Source of the DNA: a virus
DNA length: 24,648 bases
Strand: one strand, 5' to 3'
IMG/VR virus record: IMGVR_UViG_3300032271_000272
Location: 1-24,648 of that record
Positions 3,077 to 13,112 of this stretch are shown piece by piece. Both the position numbers and the translations under genes were made by a program. The notes under the pieces were generated by a model. The model was not told the origin of the DNA and did not search any database. It saw only the letters and a program-made list of their open reading frames with translations. Position 1 is the first letter of the stretch. Each line of letters begins with the position of its first letter.

Positions 3077-3454
3077 TTAGCTTTTTTGTTTAGATTTGTA
3101 ATCGGCTATTGCAGCCGAAATAGCGTCCGACGCAAGGATACTACAATGGATCTTAACCGGCGGGAGACTGAGTTCCTCTGCAATCGCAGAGTTCTTAATT
3201 GATCCAGCCTCGTCCAGCGTTTTGCCCTTGACCCATTCTGTGACAAGTGACGATGAAGCGATCGCCGACCCACAACCATAAGTTTTGAATTTTGCATCTG
3301 TGATTATTCCATCCTCTACTTTGATTTGTAATTTCATCACGTCACCACAAGCAGGAGCACCAACCATGCCTGTACCTATAGTGTCGTCTATTTCCATTTT
3401 ACCCACATTTCGTGGATTTTCGTAGTGATCGATTACTTTGTCTGAATAGGCCAT
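3077..3454 (-). CDS. iscU: Iron-sulfur cluster scaffold protein IscU
   Basis: A complete 125-residue scaffold on which Fe-S clusters are built from sulfur supplied by IscS. Every known functional residue is there: C36 and D38 (GAPACGDVM), C61 (TYGCGSAIASSS), H103 and C104 (KIHCSILA), and the LPPVK motif (97-101) that binds the chaperone HscA. The sequence is close to E. coli IscU along its whole length, so it should plug into a host ISC system. The start is ATG 3454 with an AAAGGAG ribosome site. A sigma70-type promoter lies directly upstream (3472-3500), so this gene may be expressed early. Downstream come the homing endonuclease and iscA; upstream is a radical SAM enzyme, a plausible client. 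Confidence 0.96.
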   Translation of the reverse strand: MAYSDKVIDHYENPRNVGKMEIDDTIGTGMVGAPACGDVMKLQIKVEDGIITDAKFKTYGCGSAIASSSLVTEWVKGKTLDEAGSIKNSAIAEELSLPPVKIHCSILASDAISAAIADYKSKQKS

Positions 3455-7141: not shown

Positions 7142-7540
7142 TTACAGATCAGCTGTGTTTGTGAATGATGCTGTGCCAGTAGCACTACTGATACCAATTG
7201 TGCCGTTTGCTGACTGTGCAGCAGCCAAAGCCAAAGCAACGTTAGCAAATGCGCCAACTGGGTATGTAGCAACTGAAAGTGTTGTACCTGTAGTAACTTG
7301 AGCGATAGCTACAGTAGTTGTCTGTTGCAGAGCTTGCAAAACGTTAGAAACGAATTGATTTACGCCACCTTGTGCACCGATAGCAGCATTAGCTGTAAAG
7401 GTGTAGAAGTCTAACTTAGGACCAGCTGGGTTAAAAGGACCCTGTTGAGCAATGTTAGCTGTTTGAGCAACTGGACCGTTCAATACGTCCAAATTAAATA
7501 CTGGTTGTGATCCACCAGAAACTTTAGTAATATAAGCCAT
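7142..7540 (-). CDS. Probable abundant virion protein, single-gene late transcription unit (132 aa)
   Basis: A 132-residue protein of low charge, rich in alanine, threonine, valine and asparagine (QALQQTTTVAIAQVTTGTTL, ALALAAAQSANGTIG), with no cysteine or membrane segment. The makeup suits a capsid decoration or tail protein, but no family is recognised. It is the best insulated gene in the window: a perfect TATAAATA T4-late promoter upstream (7582-7589), an AAGGAG ribosome site before ATG 7540, and an intrinsic terminator right after the stop (7099-7118). That arrangement is typical of a gene expressed strongly and late. Mass spectrometry of particles would settle the virion role. Confidence 0.75.
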   Translation of the reverse strand: MAYITKVSGGSQPVFNLDVLNGPVAQTANIAQQGPFNPAGPKLDFYTFTANAAIGAQGGVNQFVSNVLQALQQTTTVAIAQVTTGTTLSVATYPVGAFANVALALAAAQSANGTIGISSATGTASFTNTADL

Positions 7541-7581: not shown

Positions 7582-7589
7582 TATTTATA
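7582..7589 (-). promoter_or_regulatory. Perfect T4 late promoter TATAAATA
   Basis: An exact match to the T4 late consensus. The predicted start at 7576 gives a leader of about 36 bases with AAGGAG before ATG 7540. Confidence 0.8.
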
Positions 7590-7610: not shown

Positions 7611-9527
7611 TTAGGCAGGTTCTTTTGGGTTGTTTACAGCACGATTTGCCGCAGTAAAGCCGCCGGCTAAACGGTTTACAGCCTTGGCCATACCACTACT
7701 AGTGGCCATTACCCAACCTTCTTGTCCAGGATGTTGTAGATCCAGCTGTTGTAAGATGTCCATTTTGATATCATGTGCCAAGGCCCAGGCAGTAAATGCC
7801 CCTACCATGCCATCTAAATTACTGCGTGGACTTTGCAAGTATTCTACAATGTTGTTGAACTTTTTAGGTGTAACCCGTTGTTGTAACCATGGACCAAAGT
7901 CAGCCAATAAATTATCAAATCCCGATCCCACGCGACTGTTGATATAATCTACGCATAAACGAGGAAGATCGGTAATTTGTAAAGATCTAAGATCGGCAGG
8001 ATTAAACAGCTGATCAATAGCGGCGCCACGAGAATTATACACATCTTTAAGTTGCTGTACCAGTTGACGGTTAGGGCGAACATTTTCTTTGGCGTAGACT
8101 GGCTCTAACAACAATAGCCCAGTAACTGGTTTAAAGTCAACGTTACCGATGGGTTCTTTTGGTGCGCCAGGTTCGGCATAGCGTGTGTGCATGGCAATAC
8201 CTACATCACTACGAGCAATGCGTTGACCTACATCGCTGGCCATAGGAATCTTGTATTCTATGGTGTTGGGTGTAAACACAAAATTACCCGCTTGTTCTGG
8301 AGGGCGTTGTGTGTACAACAAATCACCTTGAACATAGCCTCTAAAGTTCTTAGGTGTAGCGGCTTCTAACATGGGCCATAATTGTTGATAAATTGGTAGT
8401 AGTGTCGCAACACGGGTAGCTGAACGACCTTGTGCTTCGGCATCAGCATCACGCTGTGCCAAGTGGCGGCCAACCTGTTGTGGGCTGGCAAATAGTCCAT
8501 CATATCCACGGGCTGTAAATCCTGACACATCAGTTAAAATAAAAGTTCCTTCTGGATCCCTTCCAAATACTAGTGCTGGTTTGCCGTCCCATTTGACTGT
8601 GGCAGTCTTACCTGTGTCAGCTGCAGTATGCCGGACAATATCTAACGCTTGCTTGATGCCGGCACTGCCACGACGAAACACAAGATCTTCTAGGTGCTCA
8701 ATGCCTTTGGCACGACCACCTTGTACTTCTGCTTCCACAATGACCTGCATGCCTTGATTCACAATACGATCACGCAGGCGGGCTAGGAAGTTTACTTCTG
8801 TGTATCCAGTAACTGCAGGTATTTCGCTTTCCATAAACGGAAGTCCCTCGCGCTCCATGTGCTGTTTAAAGTCTGCTAGTTTAGCCTCACGTTCTGGATC
8901 TGTGCTGAGTGCTTGTAAAATTGTTTCTACGCTGGCTAGATCTTGACGGGTGGCCGTACGGTTTAATAATAACTTTGCTACTTTGTCGGGATCATCAGTG
9001 ATAAGTTTATTGGTCACACGATCTGCAATTCCGGCAATTTGATTTAATTTATAGCCCATGCTCTTAGCAATTGAGTTCATCAGGACATTACGTTCGCGAC
9101 CTTTGTACTGTGAATCTGCTGGCATGGCGCCTAGCACAAACTTGCTCCAAGGTACATTGTTAAGGAACATAAAGTCTGACTGTACATAACCCAGATCTGG
9201 ACGGCCGTTGATTGGTGTGAGGAAGTGCACCGCAGTACCAGATTTTTTTACATAGTCTTCGGGTTTGAATCCATGACTACTGGCCCATTGTTTGAGTCTA
9301 TGCTCTAATTGGTCTTTGGTAACCTCTGTTGCATCTACAGCAATATCTAAGTCGCCAGAGGTATCTTTAATACCAGTGGATCCAAGTGTGTTGTTCTGTA
9401 GGTCAAGGCCTGGTAATAATTCTTCTAACCAAGCCAGCGTACTTTTTACATCAGTCTGATTGATGCGTTGGGTTAACGCACGGCCATTGCCGTCTTTGAA
9501 TACGTTGCCACCTTCAAGGAGTTTCAT
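7611..9527 (-). CDS. Large protein with polymerase-beta-type nucleotidyltransferase and ligase-like domains
   Basis: A 638-residue protein with two nucleotidyl-transfer signatures. Residues 49-61 read GSTG then SGDLDIAV, the G-S-x10-D-x-D pattern of the polymerase-beta nucleotidyltransferase superfamily, with a likely third acid at D118 (QSDFMF). Residues 310-317, TVKWDGKP, match the K-x-D-G nucleotide-binding lysine motif of ATP-dependent DNA/RNA ligases and capping enzymes; GYVQGDLLY (397-405) and NTIEYKIP (421-428) fall where later ligase motifs would be expected, but are divergent. Similar proteins occur in marine T4-like phages without a firm function. It is coupled (TAATG) to the upstream virion-type gene. 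The start MKLLE-GG also fits an L-x-E prohead protease site, so packaging in the head is possible but unproven. Confidence 0.8.
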   Translation of the reverse strand: MKLLEGGNVFKDGNGRALTQRINQTDVKSTLAWLEELLPGLDLQNNTLGSTGIKDTSGDLDIAVDATEVTKDQLEHRLKQWASSHGFKPEDYVKKSGTAVHFLTPINGRPDLGYVQSDFMFLNNVPWSKFVLGAMPADSQYKGRERNVLMNSIAKSMGYKLNQIAGIADRVTNKLITDDPDKVAKLLLNRTATRQDLASVETILQALSTDPEREAKLADFKQHMEREGLPFMESEIPAVTGYTEVNFLARLRDRIVNQGMQVIVEAEVQGGRAKGIEHLEDLVFRRGSAGIKQALDIVRHTAADTGKTATVKWDGKPALVFGRDPEGTFILTDVSGFTARGYDGLFASPQQVGRHLAQRDADAEAQGRSATRVATLLPIYQQLWPMLEAATPKNFRGYVQGDLLYTQRPPEQAGNFVFTPNTIEYKIPMASDVGQRIARSDVGIAMHTRYAEPGAPKEPIGNVDFKPVTGLLLLEPVYAKENVRPNRQLVQQLKDVYNSRGAAIDQLFNPADLRSLQITDLPRLCVDYINSRVGSGFDNLLADFGPWLQQRVTPKKFNNIVEYLQSPRSNLDGMVGAFTAWALAHDIKMDILQQLDLQHPGQEGWVMATSSGMAKAVNRLAGGFTAANRAVNNPKEPA

Positions 9528-10471
9528 TATATCATGCCCAAGACTTTAAGTATCTGTGTTTTGCCAGCGGGAGTTCGTGCCAGTGACTTTAGTCCTTGCG
9601 TTTGACGATCAGTGAGTCCTAGTTGATTGATTGCGTCAGAGTCAGCACCAGGTTTATATTTTGCTTTTGTTGCATCGTAGCGTTTTTGTTGTCCAATGGC
9701 CTGTATACCAGCTGAGGCCAGTTTTAAATATTCTTGAATGGCCGCGACGTGTTGTGCTGTGCCTTGAGTGTTTGCTACCTGGCGCAGAGCCTGGTCCAAT
9801 TTTTTTACTAGCTCAGGAATGTCCTTACGAACGTCATCCATGGTTGCACTTGCCCCATAGACTCCTTGTACTCTGGTTGCTAATTTTTCATCTGCCCATG
9901 CTTGAAATTTTCCAATATAATCAGCTGGTGCCGGTGCGGCAGCAGTAGTAGTAGCTGTTGTTGTTGGTGCGGCAGCAGTAGTAGTTGTGGTTGGTGCAAC
10001 AGTGCGAGCTCGTTGTTTCATTTTTGCTAGCTTGGCAGGATCCATGGGTATTGCTTCTTCTAAATCCGACTGCATGTCTTGAATTCCGCCCTTGGGTTGA
10101 CCAAACATCTGTTGCATGTTTTGTCCGGTTTTGCTTGCGGCTACCGCTGCACTCATTTGACCAGGTGCGGCCCGTGTGGTTGATGTAGCAGTAGCAGGTG
10201 CAACTTTTGCATCTGGCGATTTAAGCCACTCTTGTGCCAGTCCATTGATATAAACTGTCATACCTGGAGTCTTTTTTAGATCTGTGTATTTTTGTTCCCA
10301 GGACTGTTTAGGATCTGCATCCAACTCAGGATCTTGTCCTTGACTTTGAAGTTCTTTTTGAGAGTATTCAGCCGACTTGGCATAATCTCCAGCATAATAG
10401 TTGGCAAGAGCCATGCCTTTATTCCATAATCCTTCATCAACCCGAGATTCTGTTATTTCATGAATTTGCAT
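9527..10471 (-). CDS. Probable virion or internal head protein with Ala/Thr-rich linker (314 aa)
   Basis: A 314-residue protein in three parts: a helical N-terminal region (1-75), a long low-complexity stretch rich in alanine, threonine, proline and glutamine (about 90-185, with runs such as TTTTTAAAPTTTATTT) that is probably disordered, and a helical C-terminus (190-314). The start MQIHEITE-S matches the (L/I)-x-E cleavage rule of T4 prohead protease gp21 and resembles short capsid-targeting leaders; this is inference. It overlaps the 82-residue gene before it by 14 bases and is coupled to the nucleotidyltransferase gene after it. No enzyme motif. Confidence 0.7.
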   Translation of the reverse strand: MQIHEITESRVDEGLWNKGMALANYYAGDYAKSAEYSQKELQSQGQDPELDADPKQSWEQKYTDLKKTPGMTVYINGLAQEWLKSPDAKVAPATATSTTRAAPGQMSAAVAASKTGQNMQQMFGQPKGGIQDMQSDLEEAIPMDPAKLAKMKQRARTVAPTTTTTAAAPTTTATTTAAAPAPADYIGKFQAWADEKLATRVQGVYGASATMDDVRKDIPELVKKLDQALRQVANTQGTAQHVAAIQEYLKLASAGIQAIGQQKRYDATKAKYKPGADSDAINQLGLTDRQTQGLKSLARTPAGKTQILKVLGMI

Positions 10472-10762: not shown

Positions 10763-12172
10763 TTAATTGGCTTTAATTTGGCCTAGTAATTGCTTTAGTT
10801 TAGCACTTTGTACATCTGCAGTGATTTTAGTAGTTTCTTCTCGGTCAGTAAGATTAGCAGGCTCTGTTCCATTAATCATTGTGCTTTTTGCTTTAATACT
10901 GTCTAGCAAGTTACCCTTAGCAAAACTATTAACTGGGCCGGCTTCTTCTCCTGGATCTGTAATACGCATGGTTTCAACATTGTAATCCAAGTCAATCTTC
11001 ATGCCAACACCTGTACTACTACGCGATTTCATACATTGTATTTGATATTTGCCACGCTCACGCATGGCTCTGCTGGTGAAGATACCAAATACGTTATCTG
11101 CTGTGTTGATCTTACTAATACCACCTGAAATATGACTGTGGTCAAATTCAATTTCTTCTACTGCACTACGATTTAACTGCGACGCCGTTACAAATAGCAC
11201 ATTAAGTTCTTTGGCCAAGTTACGCAATTCTTCTGAAACATATTTGTCTTTAACAAACAAGTCATTGGGGCTAACCTTGGCACTTACAGGCATCAATAAG
11301 TCCAAGTAGTCACACATAACAAAATCTACCTTTAATCCTGTTTGCACTTGCACTTCTTTAATGTAACTGCGAATGTCGTTGATGTTGCTCTGTGCAGGCA
11401 AGGCTTTGATACGATACTGTCCGGCTTTCTTGCTAACTAGCTTGACCTTAAGTTCAGTTTGATCAATGTCCTTGCGAATTTCTTTAGTACTCATTCCTGC
11501 CAACATAGCATCTGTTCTTAGGGCACATAGTTCTTCACTAAGTTCTAAACTGATATACACACCACTAAGTCCTGCTTGCAACCAGCTCAATGCTATGTTC
11601 ATCATAACAAGCGACTTACCCGATCCAGAACCACCAGCAAAAATGTTAAGTTCTCCACGGCTGAATCCGCCATACAAGATCTTGTCCATCTGTGGCCAGC
11701 CTGTACTTACTTGTCCACCACTATTAAAATATTTGTCAATACGTAGTCTTGGATCTGCAAAATAATCTGTACCCATATCTTTGGTCAAACTAATTTGTAC
11801 CGCATCTTTAATTAATTTCTCTACGGGATCATACTCGCCTTTTTCCAACAAGTCTGCTGATTTTAGAATTGCACGTTCTAGTTCTTGTCTGCGAGTAAAC
11901 CCCTCGAACTCATCCATAAACCATTCAAAGTGTCCGTCATTTAAATCTGGAATGTTATTAAGTTTAACACCTGTACTGGCACCAATTTGTTCTATTGTTG
12001 GTAGTGTCTTGTGTTGGTCGCTATGCTTGGCAATAAACTCAGCCGCAGATCTTAAACTACGGTCAAAGTTTTCTGGATTATAAATGTTCTGAACACGCAC
12101 ATAACTTTCTGCGTCTTGTAACATCATTTCTAAGAATAGTTTTTGGACCTCAAGTCCGTAGTCTTTTAACAA
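10763..12172 (-). CDS. gp41: Replicative DNA helicase, T4 gp41-like (DnaB family)
   Basis: A 469-residue helicase, nearly the length of T4 gp41 (475). It forms a hexamer on the lagging strand and works with the primase as the primosome. The N-terminal domain (1-130) is helical; the RecA-like motor follows, with Walker A GGSGSGKS (180-187), YISLELSEE, Walker B DFVMCDYLDLL, and the FVTASQLNRSA motif near the end of the motor core. The end of the gene product (LLGQIKAN) is a short polar tail. It starts inside the end of the primase gene (23-base overlap), as expected for two proteins made together. No separate promoter is seen. Confidence 0.95.
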   Translation of the reverse strand: MLKDYGLEVQKLFLEMMLQDAESYVRVQNIYNPENFDRSLRSAAEFIAKHSDQHKTLPTIEQIGASTGVKLNNIPDLNDGHFEWFMDEFEGFTRRQELERAILKSADLLEKGEYDPVEKLIKDAVQISLTKDMGTDYFADPRLRIDKYFNSGGQVSTGWPQMDKILYGGFSRGELNIFAGGSGSGKSLVMMNIALSWLQAGLSGVYISLELSEELCALRTDAMLAGMSTKEIRKDIDQTELKVKLVSKKAGQYRIKALPAQSNINDIRSYIKEVQVQTGLKVDFVMCDYLDLLMPVSAKVSPNDLFVKDKYVSEELRNLAKELNVLFVTASQLNRSAVEEIEFDHSHISGGISKINTADNVFGIFTSRAMRERGKYQIQCMKSRSSTGVGMKIDLDYNVETMRITDPGEEAGPVNSFAKGNLLDSIKAKSTMINGTEPANLTDREETTKITADVQSAKLKQLLGQIKAN

Positions 12173-13112
12173 GTTGTTTTTTCCTTAGTTCTATTTTAAT
12201 TTTACTAGTTTCTTTGGCCTGCATTATAGTTAGCAAAGTTGCTAGTCTACCCCAACGAATTACAGCATCGTTTACATCCTTAACATCTGCAGGCCACTCA
12301 GGCATGCTTACAGCCCATCCTAGTTCTACCGCCCGGTCCACTAACTTCATGCCGGCCTCATCTTGATCTGGCACTACAATCACATCTCGACCTAGACTGC
12401 GTATCAGTCTAGCTTGTGGGTCGTTGATCTCTGCGTGTAGCACTGCCAGTCCATTAATACTGAGTGCATCAAAAACTCCTTCGACTACAATTACTGACTG
12501 CCAATCTGCGCCCTGTAAGTCTGTGCCAAATACATAACCCGGCTGTATATCCTGAATGTATCTAGGTGTGCGATCATCCAAAAATCTTGTTGTGTGCCCT
12601 ACCACTTGATTGTCATGCGTAAATGGAATTACAATGCCAGGACGTGGCATTGTTTTGTATAGGAACGGGTAGTCCATTGGTGCTAACCTCTTACGTAGAT
12701 ATTCTTCTGCCAATTCATTTAGTGGCTGTGTATCTGCTGGCAAGAGCCGATCTTCAAATATAATATTTTGTAATTGGTTGGCAATTGCTTGACGCTCGCC
12801 GAGCAATCCTTCTATACTCTTGTGCTTAAGGCTTTCAAGATTAATGCGTTCAATTTCTTCTTGCGGAACATTCATCCACTGTAGTAATTTACGAGCTTTG
12901 AATGTTAAATTACGGCCTAGTACAAAACTAGCGGTGTATCCGCAATTAAAACAATGCCAAGACCAACTACCGTCGGGTGTGGATTTTATTCCTCCACGCA
13001 TGCGACGATCTTGACTTTCGCCATTGTGCTCGCAACACGGTGCATTAACACTTATCCAACCCGAACTGGTTTGTTTTCGTTTAGCGGGTAAAAAAGAAGT
13101 CACGTCAATCAT
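12150..13112 (-). CDS. gp61: DNA primase, T4 gp61-like
   Basis: A 320-residue primase that makes RNA primers for lagging-strand synthesis. The N-terminal zinc-binding motif is formed by APCCEHNG (C26/C27, H29) and HCFNCGY (C54, C57). The Toprim catalytic domain follows with VVEGVFDALS (E-x-x-x-D) and IVVPDQDEAG (D-x-D). The C-terminus is strongly basic. Overlap with gp41 couples the two. A TTGATT-N17-TATAAT promoter lies directly upstream; its predicted first base is one position from ATG 13112 and there is no ribosome site, so the message appears leaderless. Confidence 0.93.
   Translation of the reverse strand: MIDVTSFLPAKRKQTSSGWISVNAPCCEHNGESQDRRMRGGIKSTPDGSWSWHCFNCGYTASFVLGRNLTFKARKLLQWMNVPQEEIERINLESLKHKSIEGLLGERQAIANQLQNIIFEDRLLPADTQPLNELAEEYLRKRLAPMDYPFLYKTMPRPGIVIPFTHDNQVVGHTTRFLDDRTPRYIQDIQPGYVFGTDLQGADWQSVIVVEGVFDALSINGLAVLHAEINDPQARLIRSLGRDVIVVPDQDEAGMKLVDRAVELGWAVSMPEWPADVKDVNDAVIRWGRLATLLTIMQAKETSKIKIELRKKQLVKRLRT

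Follow-up and report, generated by a model that had tools for sequence, protein, structure and literature searches.

A polymerase X-like domain joined to a ligase-like DUF6267 domain in a phage protein: a candidate virion-carried end-repair enzyme

The gene at positions 7611-9527 (minus strand) of the IMG/VR virus record IMGVR_UViG_3300032271_000272, whose 24,648 bases are here called the window, encodes a protein in which a polymerase X (PolX)-like domain is followed by a ligase-like domain of the family DUF6267. The protein as a whole is best explained, with a probability of about one half, as a two-domain polynucleotide repair enzyme that acts on DNA and is carried in the virion. The identities of the two domains are very probable, and it is probable that they would act successively on polynucleotide ends. 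An earlier interpretation made from the sequence alone (the sequence-only reading) had proposed two nucleotidyltransferase signatures in one chain; the analysis supports this, placing one signature in a polymerase beta-like domain and the other in a ligase-like domain, the catalytic residues of both being conserved. PolX-ligase fusions and pairs of Pol beta-type enzymes with ligases are known kinds of system. What is new is that such a fusion occurs in tailed phages, that DUF6267 is read as a ligase and that the protein may bear a virion leader; no earlier report of a PolX-ligase fusion in bacterial viruses was found.

Two conserved domains in one chain

7611-9527, minus strand: whole gene, PolX-like plus DUF6267 ligase-like domains (638 aa open reading frame, homologues)
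8706-8831, minus strand: low-confidence linker between the domains, residues 233-274 (predicted local distance difference test score, pLDDT, < 50)

The reading frame is uninterrupted from the ATG at 9527 to the stop at 7611, and the residues named earlier lie within it as G49-S50...S57-G58-D59-L60-D61, QSD118FMF and TVK312WDGKPALVFG. Relatives are present in 80 IMG/VR loci at 64-100% identity, mostly at full length. D59, D61, D118, K312, D314 and G315 never vary (73/73 homologues), including K312, D59 and D61, on whose conservation the sequence-only reading had staked its claim. Together, the number of homologues and the invariant residues put the match to two signatures well beyond chance. 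No bacterial relative was found in a scan of genome contigs. In one relative (L072:1585-3483) the gene consists of two open frames split by an in-frame stop, reflecting either a sequencing error or a broken gene.

The halves are independent domains, because each occurs by itself in other phages: the C-terminal half in cyanophages, and the N-terminal half in Sinorhizobium phage Phosso, Agrobacterium phage Atu_ph07 and phage PA5oct. The full-length structural model (pLDDT 80; predicted template modelling score, pTM, 0.51) gives confident predictions for both halves and a poor one for the linker. Structure comparison, also suggested earlier as a check, matched the N-terminal half to Pol beta, lambda and mu and the C-terminal half to ligases, and did not refute either assignment.

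A predicted palm and thumb of the polymerase X type

8925-9497, minus strand: polymerase X palm and thumb, residues 11-201 (VIA-align, Foldseek, hhalign)
9345-9383, minus strand: GS...SGDLD nucleotidyltransferase motif, residues 49-61 (invariant, aligned by hhalign; D59 and D61 correspond to Pol beta D190 and D192)
9174-9176, minus strand: D118, the third catalytic Asp, corresponding to Pol beta D256 (invariant, including Phosso, Atu_ph07 and PA5oct)
9039-9101, minus strand: thumb signature GRERNVLMNSIAKSMGYKLNQ, residues 143-163 (aligned to the PolX thumb)

The best VIA-align match of the modelled N-terminal half is DNA polymerase beta (Z 9.8, 167 residues, 3.6 Å), and the 50 best rows consist exclusively of Pol beta, lambda and mu. 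With Foldseek, the E-value for this half was only 0.003, yet the probability was 1.00; neither model gave a match below E 0.001 against the PDB, and the strong viral matches were mostly members of the protein's own family. When the family profile was compared with eight PolX sequences of phage, plasmid and human origin, hhalign scored 43.9 (probability 84%), the top score among 30 column shuffles being 19.3. This alignment pairs SGDLD with SGDMD of Pol beta, QSDFMF with RRIDIRL, and NVLMNSIAKSMGYKLNQ with the thumb segment NKNMRAHALEKGFTINE. In the model, strand 60-65 begins at the DxD motif and D118 lies within strand 114-122.

The clear hhalign score was reached only with full alignments of both families; a small N-terminal alignment set against Pol beta alone, or against single or paired PolX sequences, gave nothing significant. 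Similarly, no significant relative was found among PDB chains searched with single sequences and profiles, and local alignments of sequence pairs scored low, the best (z 4.2) being to a Cobetia phage PolX. Matches to the Pfam thumb family DNA_pol_B_thumb stayed below threshold (8/34 and 5/11 members). Full-size PolX members are marked by an 8-kDa lyase domain and helix-hairpin-helix fingers; here, about 48 residues lie upstream of the GS motif and the structural match begins at model residue 11, so that the domain apparently comprises palm and thumb only. True PolX proteins occur in other phages, and a phage PolX is therefore not new as such.

RlaP, the RNA-ligase-associated Pol beta family (PF10127), was tried as an identity for this half and rejected: no match was obtained at E <= 10 in the window and nine related contigs, with positive controls, and hhalign gave 17.5 compared with 43.9 for the PolX profile.

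DUF6267 as a predicted ligase core

7668-8702, minus strand: DUF6267, ligase-type covalent nucleotidyltransferase core, residues 276-620 (Pfam, model, VIA-align)
8577-8594, minus strand: ligase motif I, K312-W-D-G-K-P (K, W, D, G and P invariant in 43 sequences)
8313-8339, minus strand: ligase motif III region, G397YVQGDLLY (G401 and D402 invariant)
7734-8069, minus strand: helical insertion from the motif III region to motif IV, residues 487-598 (secondary structure in both models)
7710-7721, minus strand: ligase motif IV, E603-G604-W-V606 (E, G and V invariant)
7671-7685, minus strand: ligase motif V, K615-x-V617-x-R619 (K, V and R invariant)

The C-terminal half is a member of Pfam PF19782 (DUF6267; E 6.6e-29, 101.8 bits against a gathering cut-off of 27). 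The family corresponds to phrog_455, annotated as "unknown function", and in the S-PM2 record it appears as 'T4-LIKE GC: 71'. DUF6267 is carried as "hypothetical protein" by at least 468 public phage records, chiefly of cyanophages, and a non-exhaustive literature search found no papers on it. In an alignment of 43 sequences, which includes stand-alone cyanophage members at 21-27% identity, about 33 columns are invariant. Beyond motif I, which the earlier reading had noticed, there are motifs III, IV and V, which it had overlooked; motif III has an Asp (D402) instead of the customary Glu in all 43 sequences.

The model of this half is confident (pLDDT 88, pTM 0.84), and the motifs are placed in agreement with its strands: K312 ends strand 309-312, E603 precedes strand 604-609 and K615 lies in strand 612-617. 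All of the 50 listed VIA-align matches are DNA or RNA ligases (Z 7.8-6.4, where even 7.8 is a level common for unrelated folds), among them Naegleria RNA ligase, a trypanosome editing ligase, a tRNA ligase, human DNA ligases I and IV, and the T4 DNA and RNA ligases. Given these modest Z-scores, motifs and fold are both needed for the assignment, and the motifs carry the argument. On this basis the half is predicted to be a ligase-type nucleotidyltransferase, with K312 as the predicted adenylation site.

Recurrence of the pair in other phages

In Phosso (gp446-gp447) and Atu_ph07, a PolX-like gene overlaps a ligase-like gene with KLDGSF and EGVV motifs. Pfam RNA_ligase matches these partner genes at E 0.002 (Atu_ph07) and 0.085 (Phosso), and UniProt names as RNA ligase a 324-aa Atu_ph07 protein of a length identical to the partner. 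In PA5oct, the ligase-like gene lies three genes before the PolX-like gene, and the motifs EKIDGY, VEGYVI and VKIV were read in it by eye. All three pairs are located near primase and helicase genes. The PolX-like proteins (Phosso gp447, Atu_ph07 AUZ94877 and PA5oct EST35_0231) are homologous to the N-terminal half at 26-34% identity, with identical catalytic residues and a ligase-like gene nearby. However, they are encoded by separate genes, have no leader before GG, and are accompanied by a ligase apparently of an RNA_ligase-like family. DUF6267 gave no hhalign match to the Phosso and Atu_ph07 ligases, which are thus not demonstrably close to it, and a weak one to the PA5oct ligase-like protein (probability 22%, EGYV aligned). 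The pairing of PolX with a ligase recurs in jumbo-phage relatives with an apparently different ligase family, and may have come together there on a separate occasion. No relatives of the Phosso PolX-like protein came up in a scan.

In cyanophages, DUF6267 is located after the gp41 helicase and, in those examined, is either stand-alone or fused to a protein resembling nicotinamide mononucleotide adenylyltransferase (NMNAT), never to a PolX domain. Among the stand-alone loci with enough downstream sequence (cyanophage-type loci L087-L246), an HxGH nucleotidylyltransferase (NMNAT-like) motif starts at most about 135 bp downstream in 149/151; the two are fused in S-PM2 and in the phrog_455 profile. 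DUF6267 is repeatedly accompanied by a second nucleotidyltransferase.

Other genes at these loci were noted by eye. Past the PolX-like gene of Atu_ph07 (L085:7576-12462) stand tandem similar genes whose products begin with, for example, MRWHQLIENEI or MKWHQLTEAVT and share a repeated PLYRG motif; they resemble ADP-ribosyltransferase paralogues with capsid-targeting-like leaders. The neighbours PA5oct EST35_0229 (L086:2647-3666) and S-WAM1 gp164 (L082:6622-7986) contain D...F-S-V-K / N-I-S-M-K segments that look PD-(D/E)XK nuclease-like.

A putative leader and an internal-head-like neighbour

9513-9527, minus strand: putative cleavable leader MKLLE, residues 1-5 ([LIVMF]xE before GGN)
9527-10471, minus strand: upstream coupled gene, 314 aa, internal-head-protein-like (leader MQIHE[IL]T...[LIV]xE, variable body)

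The T4-type head protease cleaves at [LI]xE. In the homologues, the leader ends in [LIVMF]xE in 73/73 and in [LI]xE in 71/73, with 25 different leaders, followed by GGN[VI]F; residues 1-6 of the model have pLDDT < 50. Stand-alone relatives without a leader start directly with MGG or MSG, so that cleavage of the leader would give a similar N-terminus. In T4, internal proteins and Alt bear a capsid-targeting leader of 10-20 residues that is removed by the gp21 protease (PMC7411985), and the internal proteins have little in common except this leader (PMC3012670).

The stop of the upstream gene overlaps the start of the PolX-ligase gene by one base (TAATG). In the family of this upstream gene, the leader MQIHE[IL]T hardly varies and in 45/53 relatives runs to an [LIV]xE with G, A or S after it; the body is highly variable (117-523 aa), and the proteins look like T4 internal head proteins. 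The proposed coupling to a virion-type gene is thus borne out as far as the overlap goes, the virion-type character of the neighbour being judged by its leader. In PA5oct, the PolX-like protein is annotated 'structural protein, ESI-MS/MS' (electrospray ionisation tandem mass spectrometry). A putative cytidylyltransferase has been reported among the virion proteins of S-SM1 (PMC3037559) and S-CREM2 (PMC10665884); it may belong to the NMNAT-like partner family of DUF6267. The Gp23 head family gave no match in the relatives and none in the controls either, and this search is hence uninformative. The odds that the enzyme is carried in the virion appear about even.

Genomic setting and expression

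12150-13112, minus strand: primase, conserved neighbourhood (same order in PA5oct, Phosso and Atu_ph07)
10763-12172, minus strand: DnaB-like helicase, conserved neighbourhood (same order in PA5oct, Phosso and Atu_ph07)
7582-7589, minus strand: TATAAATA, late-promoter-like box, likely serving the downstream gene 7142-7540 and not the PolX-ligase gene

The replication set of the window is T4-like and comprises a primase, a DnaB-like helicase, a UvsW-type helicase and a single-stranded DNA-binding protein. Judged by the helicase, the nearest isolates belong to the PA5oct group of Pseudomonas jumbo phages, at 51% identity, followed by Atu_ph07 at 46%. Elsewhere in the window, the products of 1998-2318 and 3077-3454 (minus strand) resemble, on inspection by eye, the iron-sulphur assembly proteins IscA and IscU, and radical-SAM-type genes lie close by.

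The box TATAAATA lies 14 or 21 bases past the stop of the PolX-ligase gene in 36/69 relatives, where 0.012 would be expected per 160 bases; only 1/59 relatives has it in the 2.2 kb upstream of the gene. It probably acts as a late promoter for the gene that follows (132 aa, 7142-7540). The view that the PolX-ligase gene is itself of late type, as had been suggested, finds no support, as the box is downstream of the gene and almost never upstream.

Proposed function and alternatives

The PolX-like half would use two-metal chemistry on D59, D61 and D118 to extend a 3' end, or fill a short gap, by one or a few nucleotides; next, the ligase core, adenylated on K312, would hand AMP to a 5' phosphate and seal the nick. 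The earlier suggestion that the protein tailors and seals ends fits this predicted combination. The most likely substrate would be phage DNA, and DNA is slightly favoured as the main substrate because of the replication neighbourhood, the thumb and the precedent of PgVPolX. The T4-like leader ending in [LI]xE probably directs the protein to the prohead. Cleavage there would expose GGN as the new N-terminus, and the enzyme would enter the next host along with the genome, as a kind of first-aid kit for repair. It is tentatively suggested that a virion-carried PolX-ligase mends breaks in incoming DNA (or host tRNA) before phage gene expression.

PgVPolX of Phaeocystis globosa virus, a PolX-ligase fusion that fills gaps and seals DNA (PMC5537341), is the closest precedent, uniting in a single chain the gap filling and sealing predicted here. 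It differs in belonging to a eukaryotic (algal) virus, in its NAD+-dependent ligase domain and in a demonstrated deoxyribose-phosphate (dRP) lyase activity, whereas the present protein is from a phage and has palm and thumb only as modelled, a DUF6267 ligase-like core and a possible virion leader. Bacterial LigD and the PolX and ligase of African swine fever virus likewise unite a polymerase with a ligase for end repair (PMC5330486, PMC6344480); LigD differs in having a primase-type polymerase, and the viral enzymes are separate proteins.

Several observations weigh against a DNA repair enzyme carried in the virion. RNA ligases match the C-terminal half best by VIA-align, tied with DNA ligases, at Z-scores that unrelated folds also commonly reach. 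An OB (oligonucleotide/oligosaccharide-binding) fold is normal in DNA ligases and also characterises capping enzymes, and no OB-fold domain is obvious past motif V in the model, no separate search having been made. A gene for another, ATP-dependent DNA ligase is present in at least five related contigs, so that the enzyme studied here would be an accessory ligase rather than the sole one. As to packaging, the PA5oct ligase-like gene is without a mass-spectrometry label, and a head protease (Peptidase_S77 or S78) gave no match in nine related, possibly partial, contigs. The leader motif is not enriched over the open reading frames of one relative (5/177, null 3.8), and the stand-alone DUF6267 protein of S-CREM2 is missing from the published virion proteome table (PMC10665884). 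The comparison with T4 Alt as a packaged and injected enzyme accordingly has indirect backing from the leaders and the mass-spectrometry-labelled PA5oct homologue, and is opposed by the S-CREM2 proteome.

A possible, rather doubtful alternative is RNA repair, in which the Pol beta-type half would replace nucleotides missing from tRNA that host anticodon nucleases have cut and the ligase half would reseal it, a scheme put forward for RlaP with RNA ligase in jumbo phages. Modules of RlaP and RNA ligases described in jumbo phages (PMC7824862) are alike in combining a Pol beta-superfamily nucleotidyltransferase with a ligase in large phages, and the RNA-ligase matches of the C-terminal half, the lack of an obvious OB fold and the RNA_ligase score of the Atu_ph07 partner (E 0.002) point the same way. 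However, RlaP is another Pol beta family, to which the fused, PolX-like N-terminal half does not belong by Pfam (PF10127) or hhalign; a true RlaP is encoded separately elsewhere in Atu_ph07, a PolX thumb is present, and the neighbourhood is replicative.

It is improbable that DUF6267 is a cofactor-coupled ligase that uses NAD+, with the cyanophage NMNAT-like HxGH partner rebuilding NAD+ from the released nicotinamide mononucleotide (NMN). The near-constant adjacency of this partner, its fusion in S-PM2 and in the phrog_455 profile, and the NAD+ dependence of PgVPolX (PMC5537341) would suit such a scheme, but an NMN-binding Ia domain was not recognised, the fused PolX lineage is without such an adjacent partner, and the partner may meet other NAD+ needs. 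Equally improbable is that one or both domains modify a host protein or small molecule by transferring a nucleotide to it (AMPylation or similar), the enzyme being delivered with the genome like T4 Alt. Transfer of nucleoside monophosphates is possible for both folds and virion delivery is plausible; nevertheless, the PolX thumb and the full set of ligase motifs (I, III, IV and V) indicate polynucleotide ends, domains characteristic of protein AMPylation were not detected, and the modification of a host molecule raised in the sequence-only reading found no evidence. A catalytically silent virion or scaffold protein retaining enzyme folds, to which the structural label on the PA5oct homologue might point, is very improbable given that every catalytic residue is invariant over a large divergence.

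Implications

The predicted two-domain repair enzyme offers a testable enzymatic role for DUF6267, a widespread viral family previously without an assigned function. The coupling of DUF6267 to an NMNAT-like partner (149/151 loci) raises the question of the ligase cofactor. More broadly, large contractile-tailed phages may deliver enzymes for the repair of DNA or RNA ends to the cell along with their genome.
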